64,000 nt of DNA from Pusillibacter faecalis (GTDB taxonomy: Bacteria > Bacillota > Clostridia > Oscillospirales > Oscillospiraceae). A model generated the notes under the pieces. The model was not told the DNA's origin. It was given only the letters and a program-made list of their open reading frames with translations, and made no database searches. Location of the stretch: assembly GCF_018408705.1 (NCBI RefSeq), contig NZ_AP023421.1:434001-498000 (forward strand). Direction: 5' to 3'. Numbering within the stretch: the stretch's first letter is position 1; every line of letters begins with the position of its first letter. A program made the position numbers and the translations under genes. Shown piece after piece: positions 4,203 through 51,428 of the stretch.

Positions 4203-4278
<76 letters not shown>

Positions 4279-4298
4279 ATATTTTTATCAGCGTAGAT

Positions 4299-4327
4299 AG
4301 ATTAGCACGCGCCGCCTCAAATTGCAA
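4299..4327 (-). promoter_or_regulatory. Promoter of tRNA-Pro
   Basis: On the minus strand TTGCAA (4322-4327), a 17-base spacer and TAATCT (4299-4304) lie about 20 bases upstream of the tRNA 5' end. Confidence 0.7.
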
Positions 4328-4366
4328 GTCTTTTTTTATTTTTTCTTTTACTTTGGGAAAAGAATC

Positions 4367-4396
4367 TTGACAAACACTATTCCCTTGTGGTAAGGT
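4367..4396 (+). promoter_or_regulatory. Promoter of the tRNA-Ser pair
   Basis: TTGACA at 4367-4372 and TAAGGT at 4391-4396 are 18 bases apart; the first tRNA begins 40 bases downstream. The consensus -35 fits a strong stable-RNA promoter. It is divergent from the tRNA-Pro promoter. Confidence 0.65.
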
Positions 4397-4435
4397 ATAA
4401 AAGTGCCCGCGTGATGGACACTCCTGCAACGCAAT

Positions 4436-4523
4436 GGAGAGATGTCCGAGCGGTTGAAGGAACCGGTCTTGAAAACCGGCGAGGCGCAAGTCTCCGTGGG
4501 TTCGAATCCCACTCTCTCCGCCA
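4436..4523 (+). tRNA. tRNA-Ser (anticodon TGA)
   Basis: Acceptor GGAGAGA pairs with TCTCTCC; the anticodon stem CCGGT/ACCGG encloses loop CTTGAAA (anticodon TGA). A long variable arm, as expected for serine tRNA, precedes the T-arm containing GTTCGAATC. Discriminator G and CCA are encoded. Confidence 0.96.
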
Positions 4524-4539
4524 AAATTTTATAGAGTCT

Positions 4540-4633
4540 GCGGAAGTACCCAAGAGGCCGAAGGGGCTCCCCTGCTAAGGGAGTAGGGTGTCTAATAAAC
4601 GCCGCGAGGGTTCAAATCCCTCCTTCCGCGCCA
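4540..4633 (+). tRNA. tRNA-Ser (anticodon GCT)
   Basis: Acceptor GCGGAAG pairs with CTTCCGC; the stem CTCCC/GGGAG encloses loop CTGCTAA (anticodon GCT). The variable arm is long, the T-arm contains GTTCAAATC, and CCA is encoded. It follows the other serine tRNA after 16 bases, and both probably share one transcript. Confidence 0.96.
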
Positions 4634-4706: not shown

Positions 4707-5366
4707 ATGGAACTGTGCCACTATCTTCCCTTCTTCCAAGCTTTGCCGCCAGCAGAACAGTCCGCTCTCTCCCATGCTGCCGTGAGACGCAGAGTTCCAC
4801 AGGGGACCCTGTTACATAACGGATCTGCAGATTGTTTGGGACTATTGGTGATCGAATTGGGGCAGCTCCGGGCCTATATGACATCAGATGAAGGCCGCGA
4901 GATCACCCTATACCGCCTCTTTGACCGGGATATCTGCTTGTTCTCTGCCTCCTGTATGTTGAGCAGCATCCAGTTTGACATCATCATCTGTGCAGAGAAG
5001 GAGACAGCATTCTGGATGATCCCAGCCGATTTCTATAAGCGCCTGATGGAACGGTCCGTTGCAGTTTCCAACTATACCAACCAGCTGATGGCCTCCCGCT
5101 TTACAGAGGTGATGTGGCTGGTGGAGCAAATTCTCTGGAAAAGCTTCGATCAGCGCCTGGCCCGCTTTTTGGTAGAGGAAAGCGCCCTGGAACAGACTTC
5201 CCTGCTGATAACGACCCATGAGAAAATCGCGGCTCATCTGGGAACAGCCCGGGAGGTTGTCACCCGGATGCTGAAATACTTTCAGTCTGAGGGGATGGTT
5301 CGCCTCACTCGCGGAGCCATTGAGCTTTTAGACCTAAAAAGGCTGGAAATCCTGGCGCAGATTTAA
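4707..5366 (+). CDS. Crp/Fnr family transcriptional regulator
   Basis: A 219-residue regulator with an N-terminal cyclic-nucleotide-binding-like beta-barrel (about residues 10-120) and a C-terminal winged helix of Crp type (about 150-215, with LITTHEKIAAHLGTAREVV as the recognition region). There is no N-terminal cysteine cluster of FNR type, though single cysteines at C4 and in the barrel could take part in redox or haem sensing. AAGGAG precedes the ATG. It is followed by the DUF134-NifX gene, which has its own promoter overlapping a partial inverted repeat; this regulator is a plausible controller. The effector is not evident. Confidence 0.88.
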   Translation: MELCHYLPFFQALPPAEQSALSHAAVRRRVPQGTLLHNGSADCLGLLVIELGQLRAYMTSDEGREITLYRLFDRDICLFSASCMLSSIQFDIIICAEKETAFWMIPADFYKRLMERSVAVSNYTNQLMASRFTEVMWLVEQILWKSFDQRLARFLVEESALEQTSLLITTHEKIAAHLGTAREVVTRMLKYFQSEGMVRLTRGAIELLDLKRLEILAQI

Positions 5367-6819: not shown

Positions 6820-7482
6820 ATGGAGCTCTATGAGAGCATCCGAAATGAAATCTGCGAGGTGTGCCATCTTCTGTATGAGCGGGGGTATGTCGTCAGCAAC
6901 GACGGAAATGTATCCGTCCGCGTGGAGCCAGACAAGGTTCTGATCACGCCGTCCGGGGTTGGCAAGGGCAGGATGACACCGGACATGCTGGTGCTCTGCG
7001 ATCTGCAGGGCAACGTTTTAGCAGGAACCCGCTACCCCTCTTCCGAGAGTAAGATGCACTTGATGATCTATCGGGAGCGGAGCGACGTGATGAGTGTAGT
7101 CCACGCCCACCCCCCTCTCTCCACAGCCTTTTCCATCTGCCGCCGCCCTTTAAAGGAGCGGTATCTCGCTGAGATGATTGTGGGCCTGGGAGAAATCCCT
7201 GTCACGGAGTTCGCCATGCTCTCCACCGATGAGGTCCCTGACAGTGTCCGTCCTTTTGTGCAGGACCACAGCGCCGTGCTGCTGGCGAACCACGGCGCGC
7301 TGGCCTGGGGTCCCTCTCTCTGGTCCGCCTTTGACCGGCTTGAGGTGGTGGAGCAAACTGCCAAGGTCTTTTACTATGTGGACCGGATCGGCGGCGGCGT
7401 GGAAATCACGCAGGAACAGGCAGACACGCTACGCTCCATGACCGGTTTCTATCAAAAGCTGGCCGGAAAACGGGACACATGA
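6820..7482 (+). CDS. Class II aldolase (FucA/AraD family), candidate 5-deoxyribulose- or ribulose-1-phosphate aldolase
   Basis: A zinc-dependent aldolase of the fuculose-phosphate aldolase fold, 220 residues. It has SNDGNVSVR near the N-terminus, the catalytic glutamate in SSESKMH (E76), metal ligands in HAHPP (H95 and H97) and in ANHGALAWG (H158), all in the spacing of FucA. Members cleave ketose-1-phosphates into dihydroxyacetone phosphate and an aldehyde, or dehydrate methylthioribulose-1-phosphate. As first gene of an operon with an MtnA-like isomerase and a nucleoside phosphorylase, cleavage of a (deoxy)ribulose-1-phosphate is the best guess. ATG at 6820 is 9 bases after AAGGA; an ATG at 6814 is also in frame. 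Its stop overlaps the next gene by four bases. Confidence 0.87.
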   Translation: MELYESIRNEICEVCHLLYERGYVVSNDGNVSVRVEPDKVLITPSGVGKGRMTPDMLVLCDLQGNVLAGTRYPSSESKMHLMIYRERSDVMSVVHAHPPLSTAFSICRRPLKERYLAEMIVGLGEIPVTEFAMLSTDEVPDSVRPFVQDHSAVLLANHGALAWGPSLWSAFDRLEVVEQTAKVFYYVDRIGGGVEITQEQADTLRSMTGFYQKLAGKRDT

Positions 7483-8279
7483 GGATGCCGCCGAGTCCCC
7501 AGAGTCTCCTTGCCCCCGAGCGGCGCGCCAAAATTTTGGAGCTAGTGCGCCATGACAAGAGCGTGCTGGTCAAGGATTTATGTGTTCAGTTCGGCGTCAC
7601 AAGTGAGACGATCCGCAAGGACCTGACTCTTTTGGAGCAGGAGGGGCATCTGATCAAAACCTATGGTGGGGCCTATATCCAGGACGGCGTGAAAAACGAG
7701 ATCGATGTCAGCATCCGGAAAATGCTGCTGCCAGAGATCAAAGACGCCATCGGGCAGCGCTGCGCCTCTTTGGTGGAGGAGGGGGACACCGTCTTTCTGG
7801 ATGAAAGCACTACCTGCCTCGCCGTAGCCCGCCATCTGCTGCATAGGGACATCACAGTGGTCACCAACTCCCTGGATATCGCCCAAGTCTTTTCCGACAG
7901 CGGCCAGGGAAAGCTGCTGCTCTCCGGCGGGGAGTTGGATCGGAAAAACCGCTGTTTTGTAGGCGGCAGCGCCGAGGATTTCCTCTCCCGGTACTATATG
8001 GACAAGAGCTTCGTCTCCTGCCGGGGCGCGGACCGCGCCGCAGGCATCACAGACGGCAGCGCCGTCAATGGGCGTATCCGCTCCATGATGCTCCAGCGGG
8101 CCAAACAGCGTTTTTTGGTATTGGACCACACCAAGCTCAATAAAGCCAACTTTTTCCGAATTTGTGATTTTGATGCGATCCACACTGTTGTCGCGGATGC
8201 TTTTCCAGATACCGGCTGGTGGGAATTTTTTCGTCAGAGAGGGATTCAGGTCCTGGAATCCGGGACGCAAGGAGGTTAA
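7479..8279 (+). CDS. DeoR family transcriptional regulator
   Basis: A 266-residue repressor with an N-terminal DeoR-type helix-turn-helix (residues about 12-65, VKDLCVQFGVTSETIRKDL) and a C-terminal sugar-phosphate sensor domain of the ribose-5-phosphate isomerase-like fold (DEGDTVFLDESTT, LSGGELDRKN, FLVLDHTKL). Such regulators respond to phosphorylated sugars, so the inducer may be a sugar phosphate made by this operon. The start codon overlaps the aldolase stop (ATGA), so the two are translationally coupled. It most likely controls the promoter at 6693-6721 and perhaps that at 10683. Confidence 0.92.
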   Translation: MRMPPSPQSLLAPERRAKILELVRHDKSVLVKDLCVQFGVTSETIRKDLTLLEQEGHLIKTYGGAYIQDGVKNEIDVSIRKMLLPEIKDAIGQRCASLVEEGDTVFLDESTTCLAVARHLLHRDITVVTNSLDIAQVFSDSGQGKLLLSGGELDRKNRCFVGGSAEDFLSRYYMDKSFVSCRGADRAAGITDGSAVNGRIRSMMLQRAKQRFLVLDHTKLNKANFFRICDFDAIHTVVADAFPDTGWWEFFRQRGIQVLESGTQGG

Positions 8280-8284
8280 GCACC

Positions 8285-8752
8285 ATGTCATATACCGCTG
8301 CACAGCTCATTGAGCTTTTGCACCTGCTCCCTCATCCAGAGGGCGGCTGGTACGCTTTCCGGGAATCCAGCGGCCAGGTGTTGCCTGCTCTGCTGGGTTT
8401 TCCCGGTCATCGGGAGAGCTGCAGCTACATCTATTACCTGCTCCAGCGAGGCGAAATCTCCCGCTGGCATCAGCTCAAGGCCACCGAGGTTTGGACCTGG
8501 CACCAGGGCGGTAGCCTGGAGATGACCCTGGGCGGCACGGGGACCCTCCCGGTACCAGAGAGCACACTGACCCTGGGGCCCCGCCTGGAGGCGGGAGAGC
8601 AGTTCCAGCGGATGACGCCTGCAAACTGCTGGCAGACCACCCGCGTGGTGGACGGGGACTTCGTTTTGGTATCCTGCGTAGTCTCACCGGCTTTCCAGGG
8701 CGAGGACTGCCTGCTTCCCTTGGAGCCTTTAGACAATGAGATTTATGAATAA
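8285..8752 (+). CDS. Cupin-fold protein of the DUF985/Cupin_5 family
   Basis: A 155-residue beta-barrel protein with the Cupin_5 signature: LLPHPEGGWYAFRES near the N-terminus, then SYIYYLLQRGEISRWHQL and EVWTWHQGGSLE, ending PAFQGEDCLLPLEPLDNE. The histidines in RWHQL and TWHQG lie where cupins bind metal. Family members have no firmly established reaction; some act on sugars. The ATG at 8285 has AAGGAGG nine bases upstream; the reading frame is open further upstream but without a better start. In this operon it may act on the sugar or aldehyde released by the pathway. Confidence 0.82.
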   Translation: MSYTAAQLIELLHLLPHPEGGWYAFRESSGQVLPALLGFPGHRESCSYIYYLLQRGEISRWHQLKATEVWTWHQGGSLEMTLGGTGTLPVPESTLTLGPRLEAGEQFQRMTPANCWQTTRVVDGDFVLVSCVVSPAFQGEDCLLPLEPLDNEIYE

Positions 8753-8765
8753 AGGGGGAATTTCC

Positions 8766-9524
8766 ATGGACCTCTCACTCTTCTCCCTGGAGGGAAAAAC
8801 GGCGCTGGTCACAGGCGTAAGCCGGGGGCTTGGACAGGCCATGGCCATTGCCCTGGCAAGGGCTGGGGCCGACATTGTGGGCGTTGGGCTGCGCGGTATG
8901 GGCGACACCCAAGCCTTGGTGGAAGCCGAGGGCCGCCGCACCTATGAAATCTGCGCGGACCTTTCTCAGCGAAACGCGGCAGAGCGTGTTGCAAAGGAGG
9001 CTCTCGCCGCCTTCGGCAAGGTGGATATCCTGGTCAACAACGCCGGCATCATCAAGCTCTCCCCGGCAGAGAACCACACGATGGAGGACTTTGATGCCGT
9101 GATGGAGGTGAACCTTCGCTCCCTGTTCCTTCTCACTCGGGAGATTGCCCGTCAGATGATTTCTCTGGGGCATGGTAAGATCATCAACACCTGCTCCGTC
9201 CAGTCCATGAAAGGCGGCAGCGGCGATGCGGCGTATGTCGCCAGCAAGCACGCCGTTCACGGCCTGACCCGGGCCTGGGCCAACGAGTGGGGCCGGTACA
9301 ACATCCAGGTCAACGGCATCGCCCCAGGCTACATGGTGACAGATAACACCGCCAAGCTCCGGCAGAACCGCGAGGCGGTGGCCGCCATCACCGCCCAGAT
9401 TCCCCTAGGCCGCTGGGGAAAGCCGGAGGATCTGATGGGGCCGGTGGTCTTTCTGGCCTCCAACGCCTCAAACTTTGTAAACGGCCACCTGCTGGTGGCG
9501 GACGGCGGATACCTCAACGCATAA
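8766..9524 (+). CDS. Short-chain dehydrogenase/reductase (KduD-like)
   Basis: A 252-residue classical SDR. The NAD(P)-binding motif TGVSRGLG is at residues about 16-23, NNAG at about 90, the catalytic serine in INTCSVQSMKGG, and YVASK (Tyr-x-x-x-Lys) at about 158, with PGYMVTDNT after the active site. It resembles 2-deoxy-D-gluconate/5-keto-4-deoxyuronate dehydrogenases. AAAGGGGG precedes the ATG at 8766. In this operon it could oxidise or reduce the aldehyde or sugar intermediate; the substrate is inferred only from context. Confidence 0.9.
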   Translation: MDLSLFSLEGKTALVTGVSRGLGQAMAIALARAGADIVGVGLRGMGDTQALVEAEGRRTYEICADLSQRNAAERVAKEALAAFGKVDILVNNAGIIKLSPAENHTMEDFDAVMEVNLRSLFLLTREIARQMISLGHGKIINTCSVQSMKGGSGDAAYVASKHAVHGLTRAWANEWGRYNIQVNGIAPGYMVTDNTAKLRQNREAVAAITAQIPLGRWGKPEDLMGPVVFLASNASNFVNGHLLVADGGYLNA

Positions 9525-9560
9525 TCAAACATACGTAAATTTTAGATAGGAGTGAATCCC

Positions 9561-10634
9561 ATGTCAGAAGAGCTTAAGCAAGTAACCCACATCGACAACG
9601 TGCGGCTGGGAGAGGACGAAAAAAGTGTGGTCATCATCGATCAAACTCAGCTCCCCAACCGGACCGTCTACCTGACCCTCCGCACCCCGGAGGAGATGTA
9701 TGACGCTATCAAGCTTCTACAGGTCCGGGGCGCCCCCGCCATTGGTATCTGTGCAGGCTACAGCATTTATGCCCTGGCCCGCCAGTGGGAGATCGGCAGC
9801 TACACCGAATTTGCCCAGAAATTCCACGAGCAAAAGGAGTACCTCAACTCTTCCCGCCCCACCGCCGTCAACCTCAGTTGGGCGCTGAACCGGATGGAGG
9901 GCCTGGTGACTGCCAACGCGGGCAAGCCTGTGAGTGAAATTCTGGATCTGCTCGGCAAGGAGTGCCGCGCCATCCATGAAGAGGACATCGCCATGTGCCG
10001 GGCTATCTCCGAATACGGCCTGAGCCTCATCAAGGAGGGCGACGGTGTTCTGACCCACTGCAACGCCGGGCCTCTGGCTACCTCCCGCTACGGCACTGCT
10101 CTAGGCCCCTTGTTCCTGGGCAAAGAGCGGGGCATGAACTTCCACGTGTTCTCTGATGAGACCCGCCCTCTGCTGCAGGGCGCCCGCCTGACCTCTTATG
10201 AGCTGCAAAAGGCTGGGATTGATGTGACGCTGATCTGCGACAATATGGCCTCCATTGTCATGAAGAACGGCTGGGTACAGGCCTGCTTCGTAGGCTGCGA
10301 CCGGGTGGCCGCCAACGGTGATGCCGCCAACAAAATCGGTACCAGCGGCGTGGCGATTCTAGCCAAGCACTACGGGATTCCCTTCTATGTTCTGGGCCCC
10401 ACCTCCACCATTGACCTGAACTGCCCTGACGGAGACCACATCCCCATTGAACTGCGGGATCCCGCGGAAATCCGGGAGAAGTGGTACGCCGAGCCCATGG
10501 CTCTGCCGGAGGTCAAGTGCTATAACCCAGCCTTTGATGTTACCGACCACACCCTGATCTCCGGCATTGTCACGGAGAAAGGGATCTGCCGCGCCCCCTA
10601 TACGGAGAGTCTGGCCGCGCTGTTCAAGAAGTGA
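9561..10634 (+). CDS. MtnA-like aldose-1-phosphate isomerase (5-methylthioribose- or 5-deoxyribose-1-phosphate isomerase)
   Basis: A 357-residue member of the MtnA/eIF2B-like isomerase family, which converts an aldose-1-phosphate to the ketose-1-phosphate. Seen are [23 protein letters not shown], the catalytic cysteine in LTHCNAG (C167) and the catalytic aspartate in [17 protein letters not shown] (D247). These match MtnA rather than the regulatory eIF2B subunits. ATG at 9561 has AGGAG 8 bases upstream. Usually the partner is a kinase (MtnK), but here a nucleoside phosphorylase is present and no kinase, so the substrate is probably a sugar-1-phosphate made by phosphorolysis. No other methionine-salvage genes (MtnC, MtnD) are nearby. 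Confidence 0.9.
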
Positions 10635-10682
10635 CGGAGGATATTTGTGCCGGTTTTTGACGGATTCTGTTCAGATTTCGTC

Positions 10683-10711
10683 TTGCAATGACGCAGCGCA
10701 GATAGTATGAT
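10683..10711 (+). promoter_or_regulatory. Internal promoter before the nucleoside transporter genes
   Basis: In the 187-base gap after the isomerase gene, TTGCAA (10683-10688), a 17-base spacer and TATGAT (10706-10711) make a good promoter. It could give separate expression of the binding protein and transporter. Confidence 0.6.
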
Positions 10712-10821
10712 AGAGGTGTTCTACAGGCTTGGCCTGTTCACACAGCGGAAAATCTGTGAAACTGTTTGTCCAGCGGGCAATTTGGCTTCACACCGCCAAT
10801 TCATGAGGAGGAATGAATGAG

Positions 10822-11979
10822 ATGAAAGTAAGCAAGAAACTCGCAGCACTGTTCCTGTCCCTTGCAATGGTTCTGTCTCTGGCTGCCTGTGGCAGCGGTA
10901 CAGACACCACAGAGGATGACACCACCGGAGATGACGCCACCGCCACGGAAACCGGCCTGAAGATCTGTATCATCACCACCTCCGGCATTGACGATGGTTC
11001 CTTCAACCAGAACTGCTATGAGGGTATCCAGGCCTTCCTGGCAGATCATGCAGACTGCACAGTGACCGACATCAAGGAAGGAGACTACAACAAGCTGGTT
11101 CCCACCGTGGAGGAGATGGCAGGCGATTATGACGTCTTTGTCCTGCCCGGCTTCAACTTCTCCAACGTGGGCGACGTGGCTGCCGCCAACCCTGACACGT
11201 ATTTCATCGTGGTGGACTCCACCATCACCGACAGCGAGGGCAACCCCATGAGCCTGGACAATGTGTACACCATGACCTTCTCCGAGCAGGAGAGCGGCTT
11301 CTTCGCCGGCGTTGCCGCCGCGATGGAGACCAAGACCGGTAAGGTGGCTGTGGTTAACGGCATGGCTTATCCCTCTAATGTCAACTATCAGTATGGCTTC
11401 ATGTCCGGCGTGAACTACGCCAACAAGCACTACGGCACCACCGCGCAGTGTGTGGAACTGCCCTCCTACGCCGGTGTGGACCTGGCTGGCACCAACGTGG
11501 GCGGTAACTACATCGGCGACTTCGCGGATGAGGCCACCGGCAAGGTTGTGGGTGACGCTCTGGTAGCCGAGGGCTGCGATGTGCTGTTCGTGGCTGCGGG
11601 CAACGCTGGCAACGGCACCTTTACCGCCGCGAAGGAGGCTGACGGTGTTTGGCTGATCGGCTGTGATATCGACCAGTATGACGACGGCGCCAAGGGCAGC
11701 GAGAATATTATGCTCACCTCCACCCTGAAGAAGATGGACACCCATGTGCAAAAGCAGCTGACCGCCATCTATGACGGTACCTTCGTAGGCGAGGACGCCT
11801 TCCTGAGCGTCTCCACCGATGGTGTTGGCTATGTCTCGGAAGATGGCCGCCAGCAGCTCTCCGAGGAAACTCTGGAAAAGCTGGCTGAGTGCTATGAGCT
11901 GGTAAAGGACGGCACCATCGTCCCTGCCGCTGACGCCACTGTGAACGACTATACCCCCGATAATTTCCCCGGCCTGTAA
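10822..11979 (+). CDS. BMP family nucleoside-binding lipoprotein
   Basis: The substrate-binding protein of an ABC nucleoside importer, 385 residues. The N-terminus MKVSKKLAALFLSLAMV with lipobox LAAC (lipidated Cys23) marks a lipoprotein, followed by an acidic Thr/Asp linker. The mature part carries BMP/PnrA features: TTSGIDDGSFNQNCYEG, FSEQESGFFAGVAA, and DVLFVAAGNAGNGTF near the nucleoside site. ATG at 10822 is 10 bases after AGGAGG; an ATG at 10813 is too close. It is followed by a phosphorylase and the matching ATPase and permeases, supporting purine nucleoside uptake. Confidence 0.94.
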   Translation: MKVSKKLAALFLSLAMVLSLAACGSGTDTTEDDTTGDDATATETGLKICIITTSGIDDGSFNQNCYEGIQAFLADHADCTVTDIKEGDYNKLVPTVEEMAGDYDVFVLPGFNFSNVGDVAAANPDTYFIVVDSTITDSEGNPMSLDNVYTMTFSEQESGFFAGVAAAMETKTGKVAVVNGMAYPSNVNYQYGFMSGVNYANKHYGTTAQCVELPSYAGVDLAGTNVGGNYIGDFADEATGKVVGDALVAEGCDVLFVAAGNAGNGTFTAAKEADGVWLIGCDIDQYDDGAKGSENIMLTSTLKKMDTHVQKQLTAIYDGTFVGEDAFLSVSTDGVGYVSEDGRQQLSEETLEKLAECYELVKDGTIVPAADATVNDYTPDNFPGL

Positions 11980-12003
11980 GCTTCAGAAAGGACGTGACCT
12001 ATC

Positions 12004-12732
12004 ATGACGAAAACCTCTGTTTCCGCCAGCATCAGTGTCAAGGACGCTGAGATTGCCAAAATTGTTCTCATGCCCGGCGACCCCCTGCGGGCCAAGCACG
12101 TGGCAGAGCGCTATCTGGAAACCCCCGTCTGCTTTAATACCGTGCGCAATATGCTAGGCTATACCGGCACTTACAAGGGGAAGAAAATCTCCGTGATGGG
12201 CAGCGGCATGGGCATTCCCTCCATGGGGCTCTATGCTACCGAGCTGTACACCCAGTTTGACGTGGACGCCATCATCCGAATTGGTTCCGCCGGCGGCCTG
12301 GTGGACGAGGTGCATATGCGGGACGTGGTGATCGCCATGGCCGCGTCCTCGAACTCCAGCTACGGTGATGCGTTCGGCCTGCCCGGACATCTGACTCCCG
12401 TTGCGAACTATGGCATGCTTGCCAACGCCGTAGAGTCTGCCCAGCAGCTGGGTGTGCATGCCAAGGTCGGCCCCGTCTACACCAGCGATCACTTCTACTA
12501 CCCCACCACCGAGGTCAATGACAAGGCCCGGGAACTTGGGCATCTGGCTGTTGAAATGGAGACCGCCGGCCTCTATTGGACCGCCGCCGCCTGCCATAAG
12601 AAAGCGCTGAGCATCCTGACCATCTCCGATCATATCTATACGGGAGAGGCACTTTCTGCCGAAGACCGGCAGGAGTCCTTCCATGAGATGATGGAAGTGG
12701 CGTTGGAGACTGCCTGGCGGTGCGTTGAATAA
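12004..12732 (+). CDS. deoD: Purine nucleoside phosphorylase (DeoD type)
   Basis: A 242-residue hexameric-type phosphorylase that splits purine nucleosides with phosphate to base and (deoxy)ribose-1-phosphate. The phosphate-binding MPGDPLRAKHVAERYL and NTVRNMLGYTGTYKGK, the MGSGMGIPSMG segment, the nucleoside site VEMETAGLYWTA and the catalytic aspartate in ISDHI are all present. The gene lies between the binding protein and the ATPase, so import and phosphorolysis are genetically linked. The related 5'-deoxy and methylthio nucleosides are known alternate substrates in this superfamily. Confidence 0.94.
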   Translation: MTKTSVSASISVKDAEIAKIVLMPGDPLRAKHVAERYLETPVCFNTVRNMLGYTGTYKGKKISVMGSGMGIPSMGLYATELYTQFDVDAIIRIGSAGGLVDEVHMRDVVIAMAASSNSSYGDAFGLPGHLTPVANYGMLANAVESAQQLGVHAKVGPVYTSDHFYYPTTEVNDKARELGHLAVEMETAGLYWTAAACHKKALSILTISDHIYTGEALSAEDRQESFHEMMEVALETAWRCVE

Positions 12733-12740
12733 ACACGATC

Positions 12741-12782
12741 TGCGCCGCCCCTCCCGCCAATTGTGACGGAAGGGGCGGCGCA
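12741..12782 (+). terminator. Strong hairpin between phosphorylase and ABC ATPase genes
   Basis: TGCGCCGCCCCT (12741-12752) pairs with AGGGGCGGCGCA (12771-12782). No real T-run follows, so it probably stabilises upstream mRNA or gives partial termination inside the operon. Confidence 0.5.
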
Positions 12783-12814
12783 TCCTAATTTCAAAAACCG
12801 ATGGGGGTAGGGCC

Positions 12815-14347
12815 ATGGAAGACTACATTGTGGAAATGCGCCATATTACCAAGCGCTTTCCAGGCATTGTCGCCAACGACGATGTCAGCATCCAGATTCA
12901 GCGCGGCGAAGTCTATGCGCTGCTGGGCGAAAACGGCGCCGGAAAGAGCACACTCATGAGTATGCTCTTTGGCATGTATGAGCCGGACAGCGGGGAGATC
13001 TATATTCAGGGGGAGAAGGTGACATTCCGCTCCTCCAATGATGCCAGCGCGCACAACATCGGCATGGTGCATCAGCACTTCAAGCTGGTGGACAACTATA
13101 CAGTTGCGGAAAATATCATCCTGGGTATGGAGCCTATGAAAAGATTTCTGGGTGTGCTCCCCTGTGTGGATATGAAAACAGCGAACCGCCAAATCGCAGA
13201 GCTGTCTAAGCGGTATGGCCTGGAGGTGAATCCCACCGACAAGATTGAGGACCTTCCGGTTTCCGTCCGACAGCGGGTGGAAATCCTGAAGATGCTCTAT
13301 CGGGAGGCTGACATCCTGATCTTTGACGAGCCTACCGCCGTCCTGACACCCCAAGAAATTGAGTTTTTGTTGAAAATCATCGGTGAGCTGCGGAAAAATG
13401 GAAAAACCATTATCCTCATCACCCACAAAATTGAGGAGATCAAGAAAATTGCCGACCGCTGCGCCATCCTCCACCGCGGCAAGCTGGTGGATGTGTTGGA
13501 TGTGGCGTCCACCTCCTCTCAGACCATGGCCAATATGATGGTGGGCCGCCAGGTGGAGTTTTCTGCTGATAAGTCCTCTCCGCACTATCGGGACACCATC
13601 TTGGAGGTAGACCATCTGACTGTCCGTAACGCCAACAAATTCGATGTGGTAAAAGACGTTTCCTTCCGGATTCGGGGCGGCGAGATTTTTGCCATTGCCG
13701 GCGTCTCCGGAAATGGGCAGGGCGAGCTGGCCGACGCCATTGCCGGTATGCTGAAGGCCCACAGCGGTTCCATCAAGCTCTGTGGAACCGACATTACGGA
13801 GGCCACCATCCGCCAGCGCACAGAAGCCGGCATCTCTTACATCCCAGAGGACCGGCAGGGCGTCGGCGTCTTTATGGACTTCACACTGTCCCAGAACCTG
13901 GCGCTGCGTAAATACTATCGGGAACCGTTTGCCAAAAAGGGCATCCTGGATTTCGGTCAGTTTGACCGCTACGCGGAGAGCTTGATCGGCACCTATGACA
14001 TCCGCAGCGGTCAGGGCGGCAAAACCATCCTGCGCTCCATGAGCGGCGGCAACCAGCAAAAGGCCATCGTCGCCCGGGAGATTGAAGAGCATTCCAAGCT
14101 GATTATTTTTGTCCAGCCCACCCGGGGTCTGGACATCGGTGCTATTGAAAATATTCATCGTCAGATCATCGCGGAGCGGGATAAGGGTGTCGCCATCCTG
14201 CTGATCTCTCTGGAGCTGGATGAAATCATGGAGCTGGCTGATACGATCGGTGTCATCTACAACGGCCAGCTTCTGAAAATCGCCGACGCTTCCACCATGA
14301 CCTCTCACGATGTGGGCAAATATATGATGGGGGTGAAAGAGGCATGA
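12815..14347 (+). CDS. Nucleoside ABC transporter, double ATPase subunit (NupO-like)
   Basis: A 510-residue duplicated ATPase. The first domain has Walker [10 protein letters not shown] and Walker [14 protein letters not shown], with a weak signature [11 protein letters not shown]. The second has the altered Walker [10 protein letters not shown], intact signature [12 protein letters not shown] and Walker [12 protein letters not shown] where Gln replaces the catalytic Glu, as is usual in the BMP/sugar transporter subfamily. It energises import with the two permeases downstream. The start follows GGGGGTAGGGCC, and the stop overlaps the permease start by four bases. Confidence 0.93.
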
Positions 14348-15522
14348 AGAAACCGCTGAACAAGCTGGCGTCCATTTTGGACGGCAACCGCCATTCCTCT
14401 ATTTTCGTCTCCCTCCTCAGTATTCTGCTGAGTCTGATCTGCGCCAGCATCATTCTGCTCATCCTTGGGAAAAATCCCCTGGCGGCCTTCCAGAGCTTTT
14501 TGCAGGGAGCGGGTTTCTGGCCCAAGGCAAAATATGGCGGCGGAAGCGGCATGCTGACCGATCTGTTCTCCTTTTTGAATGTTCTGGCGCCCATGATTCT
14601 GGCTGCTCTGAGCTTTATCGTGGGCTTCAAGGCGGGCCTTTTCAACATTGGCATCTCTGGGCAGATGCTGGCCGCTGGGTTCCTGGCCACCTCCATCGTG
14701 GGTTACAGCGACCTCAATGCGGTGCTGGCAAAGCCCCTGGTGATTCTAATCGGCATCCTGGCTGGTGGCGCCCTTGGCGCGTTTGTTGGATTTCTCAAGT
14801 ACAAATTCAACATCCATGAGGTGGTTTCCACCATCATGATCAACTACATCATAAACTACTTAACAGGATTTTTCATCAATACCTATTTCGCAGATATGCT
14901 GACCCGCTCCATGAAGATTTGCGGCAGCAACGCCCGCCTGACCTGGACCAGCGTTCAGCTGGCCGGGGTGAAGTGCGATATTCCACTGGGAATTGTGTTG
15001 GCAGTAGCAGCGGCCTTTGTGGTCAAATTCATCTTTGATAAAACGGTGTTCGGCTTTGAGCTCCGGGCCGTGGGCATGAATCCAAAGTGTGCCCGGTATT
15101 CTGGCATCAAGGTAGGAAACCGGATCATTGCCTCCATGGTGATCTCCGGCATGCTGGCCGGCCTTGCCGGTGTGACCTATTACTGCGGTTATTATAACAC
15201 CATTGTTCCCAAAACACTGCCAGATCTTGGTTATGATGCCATCGCTGTGGCGCTTCTCGGAAATTCCAGCCCGATCGGCGCCATTTTCGCCGGCGGCCTC
15301 ATCAGTATCTTCCAGACCGGCAGCAACTATATGAGCTCCAGTCTGGGCGTCGCCAAGGAAATTGCCTCTTTGATCACCGGCATTTTGCTGCTGTTCTCAG
15401 CCTGCGGCGGCTACTTCCGATATCTGGCCCGCCGCCGTCTGGATCGGATGGCGGACGAGGCCGCTCAGCTGGCTGAGACACAGGCAGGTCCCGGAAAGGA
15501 GGACGAGCCCCATGTTGGATAA
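14344..15522 (+). CDS. Nucleoside ABC transporter permease (NupP-like)
   Basis: A 392-residue permease of the BPD_transp_2 family with eight or more hydrophobic segments, the family motif VVSTIMINYI in the middle (helix before the cytoplasmic coupling loop) and GFELRAVGMNPKCARYSGIK as the coupling region contacting the ATPase. It begins inside the ATPase stop codon and overlaps the next permease by 11 bases, so all three are translationally coupled. Confidence 0.92.
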   Translation: MKKPLNKLASILDGNRHSSIFVSLLSILLSLICASIILLILGKNPLAAFQSFLQGAGFWPKAKYGGGSGMLTDLFSFLNVLAPMILAALSFIVGFKAGLFNIGISGQMLAAGFLATSIVGYSDLNAVLAKPLVILIGILAGGALGAFVGFLKYKFNIHEVVSTIMINYIINYLTGFFINTYFADMLTRSMKICGSNARLTWTSVQLAGVKCDIPLGIVLAVAAAFVVKFIFDKTVFGFELRAVGMNPKCARYSGIKVGNRIIASMVISGMLAGLAGVTYYCGYYNTIVPKTLPDLGYDAIAVALLGNSSPIGAIFAGGLISIFQTGSNYMSSSLGVAKEIASLITGILLLFSACGGYFRYLARRRLDRMADEAAQLAETQAGPGKEDEPHVG

Positions 15523-16477
15523 GGTCTTTATTGACGGACTCTCCTTTGCAGCGCCTCTGCTGGTCATGGCCATCGGTGCCATTTACTCGGAAAAGAGCGG
15601 CGTTACCAATCTGGCCGTGGAGGGTTTCCAGGGCTTTGGCGCCTTTGTGGGCGCGTTGGTAGCGGTAATTCTGATGCCCACCATGGGCGACGGATCTCAG
15701 GCAGTGATCTATATTGCCATGCTGGCGGCCTTCATTGGCGGCGGCATTTACGCCTGCATTCACGCTCTGCTGTGCGTGAAGTTCCGCGCTAACCAGGTCA
15801 TCAGTGGCGTGGTGGTCAATATTTTGGCGGTTGCGCTGACCACCTTTCTCACAACCGCGATGAATAAGGCCTTGACCGGAGGGCAATCGTCCAACAAGTT
15901 CATTTTGGGAATTTCCGACCGCTTTGACATTCCCGGCCTGTCCCAGATCCCGGTCATCGGAGCCCTGTTCCAGAATATGTATCCTTTTGAGTGGATCATC
16001 CTGGCCATCGCTGTGGTGTCGTGGTACCTGATGTACAAGACCCGCTTCGGCATGCATCTGCGGGCCTGCGGTGAAAATCCCCAGTCCGTGGACGCTGCCG
16101 GCGGCAATGTGGAGCGCACCCGTTTCATTGCTGTGATGCTCTCGGGCGCCTTATCAGGTGTTGGCGGCATCTGTTTTGCCTATTCTATCTCAGCCAACTT
16201 CTCTCCCAACATCTATATGGGCTATGGATATCTGGCCATCGCCGCCATGATCTTTGGCAACTGGAACATCCCCTTTACCGCGCTGGTCTGCCTGTTCTTT
16301 GGCCTAGCCAAATCCGGCGGCTACCAGCTCTGTTTGAACATGGGGCTGCCCAGTAATTACTCCGATCTATTTATGATGCTGCCCTATATTCTCACACTTT
16401 TGCTGCTGGCCTTCTTCTCCAAGAAGAACCATCCTCCTGCTGCGGCCGGCGAGGCCTACGACAAGGGCAAGCGGTAA
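15512..16477 (+). CDS. Nucleoside ABC transporter permease (NupQ-like)
   Basis: The second permease, 321 residues and all hydrophobic segments. It has KSGVTNLAVEGFQGFGAF at the N-terminus, NQVISGVVVNILA, and the coupling loop GMHLRACGENPQSVDAAG. GGAGG precedes the ATG inside the upstream permease gene. Together with the partner permease, ATPase and lipoprotein it completes a nucleoside importer. Confidence 0.92.
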   Translation: MLDKVFIDGLSFAAPLLVMAIGAIYSEKSGVTNLAVEGFQGFGAFVGALVAVILMPTMGDGSQAVIYIAMLAAFIGGGIYACIHALLCVKFRANQVISGVVVNILAVALTTFLTTAMNKALTGGQSSNKFILGISDRFDIPGLSQIPVIGALFQNMYPFEWIILAIAVVSWYLMYKTRFGMHLRACGENPQSVDAAGGNVERTRFIAVMLSGALSGVGGICFAYSISANFSPNIYMGYGYLAIAAMIFGNWNIPFTALVCLFFGLAKSGGYQLCLNMGLPSNYSDLFMMLPYILTLLLLAFFSKKNHPPAAAGEAYDKGKR

Positions 16478-16482
16478 ATTCT

Positions 16483-16507
16483 GGCGCGCCGGTTTCGCCG
16501 GCGCGCC
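16483..16507 (+). terminator. Hairpin after the second permease gene
   Basis: GGCGCGCCGG (16483-16492) pairs perfectly with CCGGCGCGCC (16498-16507) around TTTCG. It has no long T-run and lies only 30 bases before the next gene, so readthrough into the deaminase-like gene is likely. Confidence 0.5.
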
Positions 16508-16536
16508 TTCCATACTATCATTCAAGGAGGTTCACG

Positions 16537-17925
16537 ATGAAGACCCTGATCCGAAATGCGAAAGCGATTGTCACCTGTGACGCCCAGGACCATGTCTATT
16601 GGAATGCAGACCTGCTGATTGACGGTCCCCGAATTTTGAAAATTGGCTCTCAGCTGCCCGACCCCTATGACGAAGTCCTCGATGCCAGCGGTATGTTTAT
16701 TTATCCAGGCCTGATCAACACTCATCATCACTTCTTCCAGACCTTCGTCCGGAATCTCAAAACCATTGACTATCCCAATATGACAGTGCCAGAGTGGTTG
16801 GACAAGGCGTATCGTGTCTTCCAGCTGATCAACGACGAGGTGATCTTTTACTCCTCCCTGACCGCTATGGGGGACCTGCTCAAGCACGGATGCACCTGCG
16901 CCTTTGACCACCAGTACTGCTATACCAAATCCACTGGAAAGGCACCGGTGGACCGGCAGATGGAGGCGGCCCGGATGCTGGGCATTCGCTACCATGCCGG
17001 CCGGGGCGTCAACACCCTGCCCCGGGAGAAAGGCAGCACCATCCCTGAAAACATGCTGGAGACCACGGAGGAATATCTGCAGGACTGCGAACGCATCATC
17101 CAGCTCTACCACGACCCGAATCCCTACGCCATGTCCCAAATCGTCCTGGCCCCCTGCCAGCCCATCAACAGCTATCCCGAAACCTTCACGGAGACGGTGA
17201 AGCTGGCCCGTGCCAAAGGCGTGCGGATGCACACGCACCTGGGCGAGGGAGAGAACGAGATCATGCTGGCGCGGTGGGGAAAGCGCACGTTGGACTGGTG
17301 TCAGGACATCGGCTTCATCGGCGAGGACGTGTGGTACGCCCACGGCTGGGAGCTGACGCCGGAGGAATACACGGTTCTCGGCCGCTTTGGGTCCGGCGTG
17401 TCCCACTGTCCCGGACCGGCTATTCTGGGGGGCTTTCCCATCCTGCCCATGAGGGAGATGATGGAAGCTGGCGTGTGCCTCAGTCTGGGCTGCGACGGCT
17501 CCGCCACCAATGACAGCTCCAGTCTCCTGGACTCCATGCGCACCGCCTGGATGATGCAGGCTTGGCACAGCAAGGCCCGGAGCGGCTGTATTTCCCCCTA
17601 TGAAATGTTGAAAATCGCCACCGTGGGCGGCGCCAAGACTCTGGGCCGGACAGATCTGGGGTCTCTGGAGCCGGAGAAGGGCGCAGACCTCTTTATGATC
17701 GACGCCGGAAAGCTGGAGCTGACCGGTACCCTCCACGATCCCCGGAACCTGCTGGCCCGGGCGGGCGTCACTGGCGAGACGGCTCTGACCATGGTCAATG
17801 GGAACGTAGTCTTCCGGGACGGCGTGCTCACCGGCGTGGACGAATATGCCCTGGCCCAGGAAGGCGAGGCCGTCTGCACTCGGGTTTTGCGGGAGCCCTG
17901 CGAGGCCTTTTGGAACCTCTGCTGA
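16537..17925 (+). CDS. Amidohydrolase, purine or purine-nucleoside deaminase-like (8-oxoguanine deaminase/AtzB group)
   Basis: A 462-residue metal-dependent hydrolase. The metal ligands are seen in NTHHHFFQTFVRN, HTHLGEGENE, YAHGWEL and GCDGSATNDSS, the last giving the catalytic aspartate. The HHHFFQ and CDGSATND sequences are typical of the group containing 8-oxoguanine deaminase and hydroxyatrazine hydrolase. AAGGAGG precedes the ATG. As last gene of an operon with a nucleoside importer and phosphorylase, deamination of an adenine-type nucleoside or base is the likely role; 5'-deoxyadenosine, methylthioadenosine or an oxidised purine are candidates. The exact substrate is inference. Confidence 0.88.
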   Translation: MKTLIRNAKAIVTCDAQDHVYWNADLLIDGPRILKIGSQLPDPYDEVLDASGMFIYPGLINTHHHFFQTFVRNLKTIDYPNMTVPEWLDKAYRVFQLINDEVIFYSSLTAMGDLLKHGCTCAFDHQYCYTKSTGKAPVDRQMEAARMLGIRYHAGRGVNTLPREKGSTIPENMLETTEEYLQDCERIIQLYHDPNPYAMSQIVLAPCQPINSYPETFTETVKLARAKGVRMHTHLGEGENEIMLARWGKRTLDWCQDIGFIGEDVWYAHGWELTPEEYTVLGRFGSGVSHCPGPAILGGFPILPMREMMEAGVCLSLGCDGSATNDSSSLLDSMRTAWMMQAWHSKARSGCISPYEMLKIATVGGAKTLGRTDLGSLEPEKGADLFMIDAGKLELTGTLHDPRNLLARAGVTGETALTMVNGNVVFRDGVLTGVDEYALAQEGEAVCTRVLREPCEAFWNLC

Positions 17926-17941: not shown

Positions 17942-17979
17942 AGAGGCTGACATCAAAATTGGTGTCAGCCTCTCTTTTT
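17942..17979. terminator. Bidirectional terminator closing the nucleoside operon
   Basis: AGAGGCTGACA (17942-17952) pairs with TGTCAGCCTCT (17963-17973), followed by a T5 run on the plus strand; the complementary A-rich side serves the convergent minus-strand gene. Confidence 0.88.
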
Positions 17980-44649: not shown

Positions 44650-46089
44650 TCAATCAATTTTGCCGATAAAGCGGTAGAAGATTTCTACCTCCTGTTCCCG
44701 GCTTCCGTCCTCACCTTTGACCGCTTCATGGACAACGATTTTTTCAATCAGCATATTCAAAAGTTCGGCGGTCAGTTCTGTTGGATTGACGCACTCTTTC
44801 ATCAAGGCAATCCATTTTTCTGCGTCTACGGCGTTCTGGCTTTCAGTGGCGATAGCGGATTGAAGCTGTTCAATCTTTTCGTCCAGTTCAGCCTGTTCGC
44901 TTTGGTACTTCCCGGACAGCATAGAGAAGTTGTATTCCGTGATACGCCCCGCCGCCCAGTCCTCATACATCCGGGCAAACAAAGTATCGACTTCGGCTTT
45001 TCGCTTCTCTGCCTTTTTCAGTTCTGCGGCCTGCTTCTTTCTTGCGGCAGCCTGTCCCTTATCAGTGGCATTTAACAGCTGCTTCAAGAGCCGTTCTTCA
45101 TCATGCTGTACCAGCCCCGACCAGTATTGCAGACGGGAGAGGACATAGGCATAAAGCACATCATAACGGATATAGTGCATGGAGCATTGGCGTGTGCCCT
45201 GCCCGTACTTGCTACAATGATAATGGCCGTAAGGCTTGCTGTTCTGCCTGTTCTCCCCATAGGACAGCGACCAGCCGCAATCCGCACATTTTACCAATCC
45301 GGAAAAAATCTGCGTTGTACCATCCTTGCACTTCCTGCGGCGGTTTGCTATCTGCTCCTGTACCTGCCGGAAAACCTGCTCGCTGATAATCGGCTCCTGC
45401 GTGTTCTCCACCCGCACCCATTCACTTTGGGGCTTGCGTACCCTCCGCTTGTTCTTAAAGGAAATGTTCGTTTCCCGGTAATGAATGGTATGGCCGATAT
45501 AGGTTTCGTCTTTCATAATGCTCTTGACCTGGGCTATCGTCCATGCGTAGCTTTTTTCCTCCGGCGCACCCGCATAGATGTTTGCAAAAGTCCCGTCACG
45601 CTGGAAGTTGATAAATCCCGGTGTGGGAACCTTTTCCGCAATCAGTATTCTTGTGATACTGGCCGCCCCTCTGCCATGAATAGCAAGGTCAAAAATCTTC
45701 TCCACTATCCAGCGGGTTTCCTCGTCGATTATCAGCTTGTTTTTGATTTCCGGGTGTTTCCTGTACCCGATGGGAGCATAGGCGCCGATACGCTGTCCTG
45801 TGGCAAACTTTGCTTTGAAAGCGGCCTTTACCTTGCGGCTTGTATCTTTCGCAAACCATTCATTGAACAGGTTTTTGAACGGGACAAAATCGGAAAGCCC
45901 TTTCTCTGTGTCCTCATTCTCCGCAACGGCGATGTAGCGAACCCGTTTCTCCGGGAACAGAAATTCCAGATAGTAGTCCATCATCACATGTTCCCGCCCG
46001 AAACGGGACAGGTCTTTCGTGACAATGCAGTTTACTTTTCCGGCTTCCATATCGTCCATCATGCGCTGAAAATCCGGCCGTTCAAAAGA
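44650..46089 (-). pseudogene. Large serine recombinase, N-terminal catalytic domain missing
   Basis: Recognisable from SFERPDFQRMMDDMEAGKVN to the end: remainder of the resolvase domain (IVTKDLSRFGREHVMMDYYLE), the recombinase domain, a zinc ribbon (CADCGWSLSYGENRQN), coiled coil and DUF4368-type end (REQEVEIFYRFIGKID). The first about 60 residues, with the catalytic serine and YCRLS motif, are absent; the frame instead continues to an unrelated 20-residue stretch with an ATG at 46152. A 12-bp dyad (CGTTA-GA-TAACG, 46093-46104) lies at the break. The gene ends 30 bases from the element border, as expected for the integrase of this element, but the product cannot be active as it stands. Confidence 0.82.
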
Positions 46090-46187
46090 TGACGTTAGAT
46101 AACGATACTTTTGAAAACACTGGAAAATCAAGGTTTTTCGAGCGACGGACAAGCAGGGTATTGTACTAAAAACTGAATACGACGCAG

Positions 46188-46237
46188 AAGCGGCGTTTCT
46201 TACTCTCTACATGGGAGAACAGGAACGCCGCTTTTTT
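46188..46237 (+). terminator. Terminator or attenuator before the rep gene
   Basis: AAGCGGCGTT (46188-46197) and AACGCCGCTT (46224-46233) are perfect arms followed by T6. Confidence 0.7.
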
Positions 46238-46386
46238 CATGCCCTTTGTTACGCAGTAGGGGCAGAAAAAGCCTTGCTACAAGCGGTTTTGCGGGTGTGT
46301 ATCTGGCGCGGCAAGGGATTTATACCTTATCCCCCGAAACTGCGCTTCTACTGCGTAACAAATCCAAAGCAAAGGAGCTATGAACT

Positions 46387-47370
46387 ATGGCAGTTTTCAG
46401 AGTGGAACGGAACAAGGGCTACACCGTAATGAGCAACCACCACCTACGCAACAAGGAGCTTTCCTTAAAGGCAAAAGGGCTGTTGTCGCAAATGCTGTCA
46501 CTCCCCGAAGATTGGGACTACACCTTGAAAGGCTTATCCCTTATCAACCGGGAGAAGATAGACGCTATCCGCGAAGCCATTAAGGAGCTTGAACGCGCCG
46601 GGTATATCGTCCGGTCAAGGGAGCGTGACGAGAAAGGACGCTTGCGGGGCGCGGACTATGTGATATTCGAGCAGCCGCAGCCGCCTACGCCGGATTTACC
46701 TACATTGGAAAATCCAACATTGGATAATCCAACGCAGGAAAAACCAACATTGGAAAAACCTACGTTGGAAAATCCAACGCAATTAAATAAAGATATACAA
46801 AGAACTGACTTACCAAAAAAAGAAAAAATAATTACTGATGAACAAAGTACCCATTCCATTCCTATCCTTTCCCCTAACCCCTCACCTTGCAGAGAAGCGG
46901 CTGCGCCGCCGGAACGGAAAGGAAAGGAAGCGGCAGCACAGAGCGCAGTTGATATATACCGGGAAATCATCAAGGACAATATCGACTACCACATTCTCAA
47001 ACAGGACATGAAGTTTGACGGGGACAGGCTGGACGAGATTGTAGACCTCATGCTTGAAACCGTATGCACCGCCAGAAAGCGGGTACGGATTGCGGGGGAC
47101 GACTACCCGGCAGAGCTTGTGAAGTCAAAGTTTATGAAACTGGACGGCGAACATATCCGCTTTGTGCTTGACTGTATGCGGGAGAACACAACCAAAATCC
47201 GCAACATCAAGCAATATCTGAAAGCAGCCCTTTTCAACGCCCCGTCCACTATCGGCAATTATTACACTTCCCTTGTCGCCCATGACATGGCAAGCGGCGC
47301 ACTGTCACCGAAAAAGCCGCAGTACGGCGACCCGGACTATTATTCATGCAACGAGGGCGAAAGCCTGTAA
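46387..47370 (+). CDS. Replication initiator/replisome organizer-like protein (DUF6017)
   Basis: A 327-residue protein with an N-terminal winged helix (VMSNHHLRNKELSLKAKGLL, LPEDWDYTLKGLS, AIKELERAGYIVRSR), a linker with six pentapeptide repeats of the form PT-L/Q-x-N/K (residues about 105-134), and a C-terminal DUF6017 domain. Such proteins are the replication initiators of conjugative elements and phages. AAAGGAG precedes the ATG. First gene of the plus-strand transfer operon. Confidence 0.88.
   Translation: MAVFRVERNKGYTVMSNHHLRNKELSLKAKGLLSQMLSLPEDWDYTLKGLSLINREKIDAIREAIKELERAGYIVRSRERDEKGRLRGADYVIFEQPQPPTPDLPTLENPTLDNPTQEKPTLEKPTLENPTQLNKDIQRTDLPKKEKIITDEQSTHSIPILSPNPSPCREAAAPPERKGKEAAAQSAVDIYREIIKDNIDYHILKQDMKFDGDRLDEIVDLMLETVCTARKRVRIAGDDYPAELVKSKFMKLDGEHIRFVLDCMRENTTKIRNIKQYLKAALFNAPSTIGNYYTSLVAHDMASGALSPKKPQYGDPDYYSCNEGESL
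46699..46788 (+). repeat. Six 15-bp iteron-like repeats inside the rep gene
   Basis: Six successive 15-bp units of the form CC-W-AC-x-TTGGAAAAT; several contain the self-complementary TTGGA-AAA-TCCAA. An AT-rich stretch (about 46780-46850) follows directly. Repeats next to AT-rich DNA inside an initiator gene are the layout of lambda-O-type replication origins. Confidence 0.65.
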
Positions 47371-47401
47371 CCACCCACAACCACAAAAGGAGGATTTTAT
47401 T

Positions 47402-47623: not shown

Positions 47624-47664
47624 CCGCCACCCCATAAAGAAACGCGAAAGGAGGACGCGACAAA

Positions 47665-49105: not shown

Positions 49106-49106
49106 T

Positions 49107-49162: not shown

Positions 49163-49193
49163 CAACCTAAAACCGAAGAAAGGAGCGCAAGTT

Positions 49194-51422: not shown

Positions 51423-51428
51423 GCGAGG

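Follow-up and report, generated by a model that had tools for sequence, protein, structure and literature searches.

We analysed a 64,000-nucleotide stretch of the genome of Pusillibacter faecalis, a probable gut bacterium (RefSeq assembly GCF_018408705.1, contig NZ_AP023421.1, positions 434,001 to 498,000 of the forward strand), hereafter called the window, and found that eleven co-directional genes at positions 6820-17925 form a real operon. It encodes a BMP-type ATP-binding cassette (ABC) importer, a DeoD-type purine nucleoside phosphorylase (PNP), an MtnA-like isomerase and a FucA-like aldolase. We tentatively propose, with confidence just short of even, that this operon encodes a form of the dihydroxyacetone phosphate (DHAP) shunt equipped with an importer and acting on purine nucleosides altered at the 5' position. 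If this is true, these Oscillospiraceae would use nucleosides as food along a path that bypasses ribose-5-phosphate and includes its own importer.

In the proposed pathway, the BMP-ABC importer would take up purine nucleosides with an altered 5' position (5'-deoxyadenosine, methylthioadenosine (MTA) or their inosine forms), and the DeoD-type phosphorylase would split them into the base and a 5-X-ribose-1-phosphate, so that no kinase would be needed. The MtnA-like enzyme would form a 1-phosphoketose, which the FucA-like aldolase would cleave to DHAP, with either acetaldehyde or methylthioacetaldehyde as the short aldehyde product; a short-chain dehydrogenase/reductase (SDR) could serve as aldehyde reductase, and the amidohydrolase may deaminate the adenine nucleoside or base. 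We infer the substrate, the order of the steps and these roles of the SDR and the amidohydrolase from the set of enzymes encoded.

The operon and its enzymes

The sequence itself shows to which families the enzymes belong, which motifs they keep, and how the genes are ordered and conserved. The genes and the stem that follows them are as follows.

6820-7482, plus strand: class II (FucA-like) aldolase, proposed to release DHAP from a ketose-1-phosphate (PF00596, 174 bits)
7479-8279, plus strand: DeoR-family regulator (DeoRC, 160.8 bits; HTH_DeoR, 53.9 bits)
8285-8752, plus strand: Cupin_5 (DUF985) protein (PF06172, 127 bits)
8736-9524, alternative start ATG 8766, plus strand: SDR oxidoreductase, KduD-like (PF13561, 198.8 bits)
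9552-10634, plus strand: MtnA-like aldose-1-phosphate isomerase (TIGR00512, 399.8 bits, cut-off 279)
10813-11979, plus strand: BMP-type substrate-binding lipoprotein, PnrA-like (PF02608, 153.9 bits)
12004-12732, plus strand: DeoD-type PNP with Ser9 at the DeoD His position (TIGR00107, 291 bits, cut-off 232.25)
12815-14347, plus strand: ABC importer ATPase with two ATPase halves (NCBIfam matches to B6 and sugar importer ATPases)
14344-15522, plus strand: importer permease 1 (PF02653, 153.1 bits)
15512-16477, plus strand: importer permease 2 (PF02653, 147.4 bits)
16537-17925, plus strand: amidohydrolase of the deaminase type, nearest to 8-oxoguanine deaminases (PF01979, 168.2 bits)
17942-17973, plus strand: intrinsic terminator-like stem 3' of the last gene (14-pair stem, then a T run)

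In the open reading frame (ORF) list of the window, these genes are separated by short gaps (-4, 5, -17, 27, 178, 24, 82, -4, -11 and 59 bases). Ten of the proteins were scanned with Pfam, and their best E-values ranged from 6.5e-37 to 8.7e-74; the ABC ATPase was scanned with NCBIfam only, and none of the best 25 of its 189 matches was over its cut-off. Curated NCBIfam cut-offs were exceeded by the MtnA-like protein (TIGR00512) and the DeoD-type PNP (TIGR00107). Only the 178-base gap upstream of bmp has room for a second promoter; it holds one promoter-like match, and the total of 8 for the region is near chance (shuffles gave a mean of 5.9 with a standard deviation of 2.4). An Rfam search found no RNA element within the operon, and a DeoR operator common to both gaps, sought as a shared 16-mer with at most 3 mismatches, was not found. 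The block was found again in other genomes, and the record L093 from Oscillibacter sp. CAG:155 carries all eleven genes in identical order; therefore, the block is not a chance assembly.

An earlier note, made from the letters of the window, had proposed a single kinase-free operon with this gene content. Its gene content and one-operon claim were borne out, since all the genes that it named are co-directional plus-strand ORFs with family matches, closed by the terminator-like stem. The kinase-free layout also stood: there is no kinase among the eleven genes, and alignments show conserved catalytic motifs in both the MtnA-like protein and the aldolase. A kinase in the same operon of relatives, which the note had regarded as evidence to the contrary, was not found inside the block, the flanking genes not being scanned for kinases. 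In the loci examined for block integrity, the sole gap of more than 300 bases between matched ORFs was one of 1467 bases in L115, the content of which was not identified. Downstream of the importer in relatives, a kinase of ~490 amino acids (aa) was suspected from its length and then rejected, as by eye these are secreted proteins and not sugar kinases. Proteins of ~490-500 aa lie 3' of permease 2 in L033, L034, L035, L037 and L106; by eye, they begin like a signal sequence and have a motif repeated in the N-terminal part.

The nearest solved chains of the aldolase were FucA (4c24/4c25) and 6btd, which we take to be DrdA, and alignment to 4c24 and 6btd showed that the SSE, HAH and NHG motifs (S-S-E, H-x-H, N-H-G) are kept. 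No NCBIfam cut-off was reached by the aldolase among the best 25 of 31 models, and its score against the ribulose-1-phosphate aldolase equivalog NF053831 was 109.2, below the cut-off of 300. Cys170 and Asp250 of the MtnA-like protein align with the conserved Cys and Asp, presumably catalytic, of the solved MtnA 2yrf, which we take to be the B. subtilis enzyme. We count in favour of 5'-altered nucleosides that this protein is over the MtnA cut-off and far below that of ribose-1,5-bisphosphate isomerase (TIGR00511, 163.9 against a cut-off of 314.1).

The 5' sugar pocket of the DeoD-type phosphorylase

In hexameric DeoD, a His close to the N-terminus (E. coli His4), contributed by the adjacent subunit, binds the 5'-OH of the ribose. 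The window PNP carries Ser9 at what we take to be this site, and it keeps the motifs that presumably form the phosphate and base sites. All five DeoD sequences from the PDB that were compared (4d8v, 1xe3, 2ac7, 9qh2 and 3uay) have His at the His4 position. DeoD copies in mtnA-containing loci lacked this His in 25 of 25 cases (17 Cys, 7 Ser, 1 Leu), whereas all 30 DeoD copies of family genomes that are not beside mtnA carried it, although in three the alignment places it one residue off. The control copies came from 40 hand-picked family genomes (28 with DeoB and without MtnA-like, 5 with both, 6 with neither and 1 with MtnA-like only), 30 of which had a match; DNA was obtained for 30 of the 31 matches, and no mtnA was found in the ~1.5 kb flanks of these 30. 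Moreover, the DeoD beside deoB in G052, a genome with both MtnA-like and DeoB, keeps the His. Among the 120 nearest database homologues of the window PNP, His was present in 1 and another residue in 119; of the latter, 118 were scored at a fixed offset and one was inspected by eye.

In the tree, the His-less and the His-bearing DeoD sets form the two sides of one branch, with a support of 100/100. L082, a locus with a different importer and phosphorylase, is also without His and has Leu instead; sitting on a very long branch, it alone hints that the His was lost a second time. L082 (in G078) comprises another BMP importer, two tandem phosphorylase-like ORFs (the second not counted here), mtnA, a reversed DeoR gene and an aldolase, with no match to the cupin or the SDR. 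The altered 5' pocket of the DeoD-type PNP tips the balance slightly towards nucleosides modified at the 5' position (5'-deoxy or methylthio), rather than ordinary ribonucleosides, as the substrate. We counted as support the DeoD His contrast, the near-absence of His from the 120 nearest homologues, the His of the deoB-linked copy in G052, the Leu of L082, the lack of DeoB in the host genome, the mutual exclusion of MtnA-like and DeoB described below and the published use of exogenous 5'-deoxynucleosides by E. coli (see the comparison with known systems). In DeoD, one residue of the 5' sugar pocket varies with the gene linked downstream (mtnA in some copies, deoB for example in others), which makes the substrate range testable.

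Phosphopentomutase and the case for ordinary ribonucleosides

The own genome of the operon (97.65% complete) gave no match to the phosphopentomutase DeoB (TIGR01696). In a family set of 300 genomes, MtnA-like was present at E <= 1e-60 in 162 and DeoB at E <= 1e-30 in 52; 13 genomes had both, 149 MtnA-like only, 39 DeoB only and 99 neither (Fisher p 5.6e-6). Counted by genus, the numbers were 9, 61, 15 and 21, respectively (p 0.0013). Genomes with MtnA-like thus tend to be without DeoB, and vice versa. These p-values are rough, as the genomes are related and many are incomplete, and DeoB or MtnA can seem to be missing because a genome is incomplete. In 17 genomes (16 with cupin-linked loci and the own genome), DeoB matched at E <= 0.001 in 5 and over its cut-off in 3. 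The own genome also has a PunA (L168), a Udp (L171) and an MTA/S-adenosylhomocysteine (SAH) nucleosidase (L169), each over a cut-off, as well as a 575-aa phosphosugar mutase (L173), presumably PGM2/PgcA-like, which could supply phosphopentomutase activity.

The absence of DeoB from the own genome and its anti-correlation with MtnA-like also speak for another reading, which we consider a real possibility while giving it limited credence, namely that the substrates are ordinary purine ribonucleosides. The PNP would give ribose-1-phosphate, the MtnA-like enzyme would turn it directly into ribulose-1-phosphate, the aldolase would release DHAP and glycolaldehyde, and the SDR would reduce the latter to ethylene glycol, so that the operon would stand in for the missing DeoB as a kinase-free form of the haloarchaeal pathway. 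Consistent with this, an SDR gene is present in 24 of the 29 cupin loci of relatives described below, and in haloarchaea a FucA-type enzyme makes and cleaves ribulose-1-phosphate, with a glycolaldehyde reductase as the next step (PMC9700705; here and below, articles are cited for the excerpts consulted). However, the operon's own PNP has lost the 5'-OH-binding His, the family matched by the MtnA-like protein is a methylthioribose-1-phosphate enzyme, and, with the mutase L173 as a possible replacement for DeoB, the anti-correlation does not require that the operon be a substitute.

The block in related genomes

Gene order was inspected at 60 loci from 59 of the 162 MtnA-like genomes, hand-picked down the ranking, and besides the long block many of these loci were mtnA-pnp or mtnA-ald pairs. 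An alignment scan of named genomes for the cupin gene (cup5) gave 47 loci, of which 29 (L092-L119 and L123) were counted; they come from Oscillospiraceae, other Clostridia, Gracilibacteraceae and Treponema, and some end at contig ends. At more than 100 bits, ORF matches in these 29 loci were sdr in 24, bmp in 20, ald in 18 and mtnA in 15, and the phosphorylases were PunA-type in 7, DeoD in 4 and Udp-like in 2. A deaminase of the window type was present in one (L093). Some contigs, judged by their length, were reached twice (L032/L096, L033/L095, L034/L101, L037/L103 and L041/L111), L042/L043 and L109/L123 are near-copies, and L099 is partial. A relative of the window aldolase was found at E <= 1e-8 in 14 of 17 genomes searched.

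The Treponema loci L107 and L116 have the order PunA-cup5-sdr-bmp-abc-perm-perm, and their blocks contain neither mtnA nor an aldolase gene; L115 has the same layout plus the 1467-base gap, L108 and L114 are cut, and L112 has PunA-cup5 only. A reversed 278-aa ORF 5' of cup5 in Treponema had concealed a PunA-type PNP, and ORFs of ~640 aa and ~340 aa 5' of cup5 are by eye parts of a tripartite ATP-independent periplasmic (TRAP) transporter. Loss of MtnA from the Treponema genomes was considered and rejected, as the match sits elsewhere in the genome: MtnA matched in 16 of 16 genomes searched, and the four Treponema genomes among them have it away from the block. In three of the four, mtnA is beside a 252-aa phosphorylase-like gene, one copy of which was scanned (L147) and was over the MTA phosphorylase cut-off; in the fourth, mtnA is followed by a weak PunA-like match.

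Alternatively, the block may serve a different imported sugar or sugar derivative, with the phosphorylase and the deaminase as late additions. For this unlikely alternative speak the blocks of the form ald-cup5-(sdr)-mtnA-bmp-abc-permeases without a phosphorylase (L094, L097, L098 and L101-L103), those without mtnA (L105, L106, L110 and L113) and the loci with cup5-sdr alone (L117-L119). Against it, the phosphorylases, where present, are of three nucleoside types (DeoD, PunA-type and Udp-like), which points to nucleosides.

Trimeric phosphorylases and the weighing of substrates

Three solved PunA proteins that were compared keep the His matching the 5'-OH site. We sampled the trimeric PunA-type PNPs in 40 genomes, 31 of which had a match, with DNA for 30 of 32 matches, and added L168 of the own genome. 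The PunA copies of the cup5 loci lacked the His in 7 of 7 cases, and convergent loss of the 5'-OH His in PunA was considered; this was dropped, as 22 of the 27 copies in this sample that are not linked to cup5, including the own genome's unlinked L168, are also without it, and all four copies directly beside mtnA (L063, L065, L076 and L232) keep it. Two further copies, near a weak MtnA-family gene (L224, 111 bits; L229, 105 bits), are without His. At the position of the His, the family PunA-type PNPs (L168 and L205-L229) have Gly, Glu, Ser, Asp, Gln or Thr, and many adjoin a deaminase-like gene. Candidate substrates of these enzymes are methylthioinosine and 5'-deoxyinosine.

Several observations weigh against 5'-altered nucleosides as the substrate. 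The pattern of the DeoD copies does not extend to the trimeric PNPs, in which the His is kept beside mtnA and is often lacking in copies apart from cup5; the intact 5'-OH site of the mtnA-adjacent PunA copies favours ordinary ribonucleosides in those genomes. Given the four His-bearing copies, we lowered our confidence in 5'-altered nucleosides from even to a little under even and slightly raised that in ordinary ribonucleosides. The DeoD contrast is one of clade versus clade, so a single change could perhaps explain it, and Ser or Cys at the His4 position could still hold a 5'-OH. Moreover, several relatives carry the block without any phosphorylase gene, and the SDR is missing from four cup5 loci (L094, L097 and L098, where mtnA directly follows cup5, and L112, within 3.5 kb). 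Because the own genome has the MTA/SAH nucleosidase L169, disposal of 5'-deoxyadenosine need not depend on the operon. Finally, the deaminase scores 379.6 bits as an 8-oxoguanine deaminase (PRK08203, cut-off 532) and 205.7 as a 5'-deoxyadenosine deaminase.

This last match, together with the nearest solved chains (3hpa and 7ww2), places the deaminase closest to the 8-oxoguanine deaminase group and suggests a further alternative, that oxidised purine nucleosides such as 8-oxoguanosine are degraded, with phosphorolysis freeing 8-oxoguanine, the deaminase converting it to urate and the sugar going to DHAP. We regard this as very improbable: the score is below the cut-off, a deaminase of this type occurs in only one cup5 locus of the 29 (L093) and is thus unlikely to define the main substrate, and the change in the PNP concerns the sugar and not the base. 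For deaminases beside mtnA (L046, L052, L065 and L076), the best models were N-ethylammeline chlorohydrolase or TRZ/ATZ hydrolase, none over the cut-off, and the 5'-deoxyadenosine deaminase model ranked behind, listed for three of the four; these were not used as evidence. Among the substrates offered by the earlier note, the 5'-deoxy and methylthio nucleosides gained slightly from the changed DeoD pocket, normal ribonucleosides stay a close rival, and the oxidised purines rest on a deaminase match below threshold.

The DUF985 cupin and the SDR

The operon places the DUF985 cupin family in a nucleoside pathway. The AF2 model of the window cupin (pLDDT 93.8) matched the fold of DUF985 structures, one of which is titled as GDP-bound, and the four solved chains matched in sequence are DUF985-type proteins. 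Outside DUF985, the best Foldseek match was the R. palustris cupin_2 protein 3kgz (TM 0.49, rmsd 8.6), which may be the cupin of the MTA-isoprenoid shunt. The SDR scored 314.4 bits against KduD (TIGR01832), below the cut-off of 338.85, and has the Ser, Tyr and Lys motifs.

We also considered that the cupin, with the SDR where present, removes or alters the 5'-OH of the imported nucleoside by oxidation, loss of water and reduction, similar to sugar-nucleotide 4,6-dehydratases or the cupin Pac13. The phosphorylase would then need no 5'-OH, as the cell would purposely produce the 5'-deoxynucleoside itself, and ordinary ribonucleosides would end as DHAP and acetaldehyde instead of glycolaldehyde. 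To our knowledge, this would be the first enzymatic function for DUF985. The GDP-bound title is in line with it, and so is the position of cup5 next to the BMP importer and nucleoside phosphorylases, which holds also for Treponema loci whose block has neither mtnA nor an aldolase gene. However, it seems quite improbable, as the SDR is absent from the four loci named above and the fold matches of the cupin do not discriminate. Solved DUF985 members come from bacteria, yeast, Leishmania and lancelet, and the titles and abstract beginnings of the open-licence papers listed for the family gave no enzymatic function; a fungal member is reported to contribute to pathogenicity (PMC8704077).

Other features of the window

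Three tRNA genes (4206-4630) lie just upstream of a Crp-family regulator (4707-5366). An integrated mobilisable or conjugative element seems to occupy the region 44650-64000, where part of the DNA has a lower GC content (0.43-0.52). The region carries a serine recombinase (44653-46152), a type IV secretion system coupling-type protein (48138-49475), an ABC protein with DUF1430 (52783-54207), a MobA/MobL relaxase (54920-56413) and a Toprim/DUF3991 protein (56413-57594).

Comparison with known systems

The likeness to 5-deoxyribose disposal and the DHAP shunt (DrdK-DrdI-DrdA; MtnP or MtnK-MtnA-Ald2) that the earlier note had drawn is right in layout and is not new. Known 5-deoxyribose clusters combine a phosphorylase or kinase with an MtnA-like isomerase and a FucA-like aldolase, and four of those described have transporters; a kinase-free phosphorylase-isomerase-aldolase route for 5-deoxyribose was published in 2018, and in C. 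phytofermentans a phosphorylase directly forms the sugar phosphate (PMC6079011). Similarly, E. coli uses exogenous 5'-deoxynucleosides through the DHAP shunt, with a putative transporter gene (PMC10986504, PMC12632272), and the words ribose-1-phosphate, ribulose-1-phosphate and glycolaldehyde are absent from the main text of both articles; PMC6302742 is a review. The window operon shares the isomerase and class II aldolase with these systems. It differs in its DeoD-type PNP with a changed 5' residue, in place of an MTA phosphorylase, and in its BMP-ABC importer, DUF985 cupin, SDR and 8-oxoguanine-deaminase-like enzyme. The titles and abstract beginnings of the open-licence papers listed in the searches gave no operon of this kind with a cupin or a BMP importer.

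The comparison with the archaeal ribulose-1-phosphate route holds in part. The haloarchaeal non-carboxylating pentose bisphosphate pathway likewise has nucleoside phosphorolysis, an aldolase giving DHAP and an aldehyde, and an aldehyde reductase, but it converts guanosine to DHAP and ethylene glycol via a kinase, a ribose-1,5-bisphosphate isomerase and a phosphatase (PMC9700705). The window operon has no genes for the ribose-1-phosphate kinase, ribose-1,5-bisphosphate isomerase or ribulose bisphosphate phosphatase, and its MtnA-like isomerase would act on a monophosphate. With the MTA-isoprenoid shunt of Rhodospirillum and Rhodopseudomonas it shares MtnA and a cupin, which in the shunt is a methylsulfurylase of MTA salvage (PMC5893883); the shunt's cupin follows a RuBisCO-like protein, whereas the sequence matches of the window cupin are of the DUF985 type.

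DeoD-DeoB nucleoside catabolism also has a DeoD-type PNP, and BMP-like genes lie near some of the DeoD controls; here, in contrast, the genome has no DeoB, an MtnA-like enzyme and an aldolase are present instead, and the 5' pocket residue is changed. The Streptomyces fluorometabolite pathway has phosphorylase entry as well, with a fluorinated substrate and, in the descriptions consulted, no importer or cupin named. The pathway type is therefore already known, and what this operon adds to it is the BMP-type ABC importer, the DUF985 cupin, the SDR and the deaminase.

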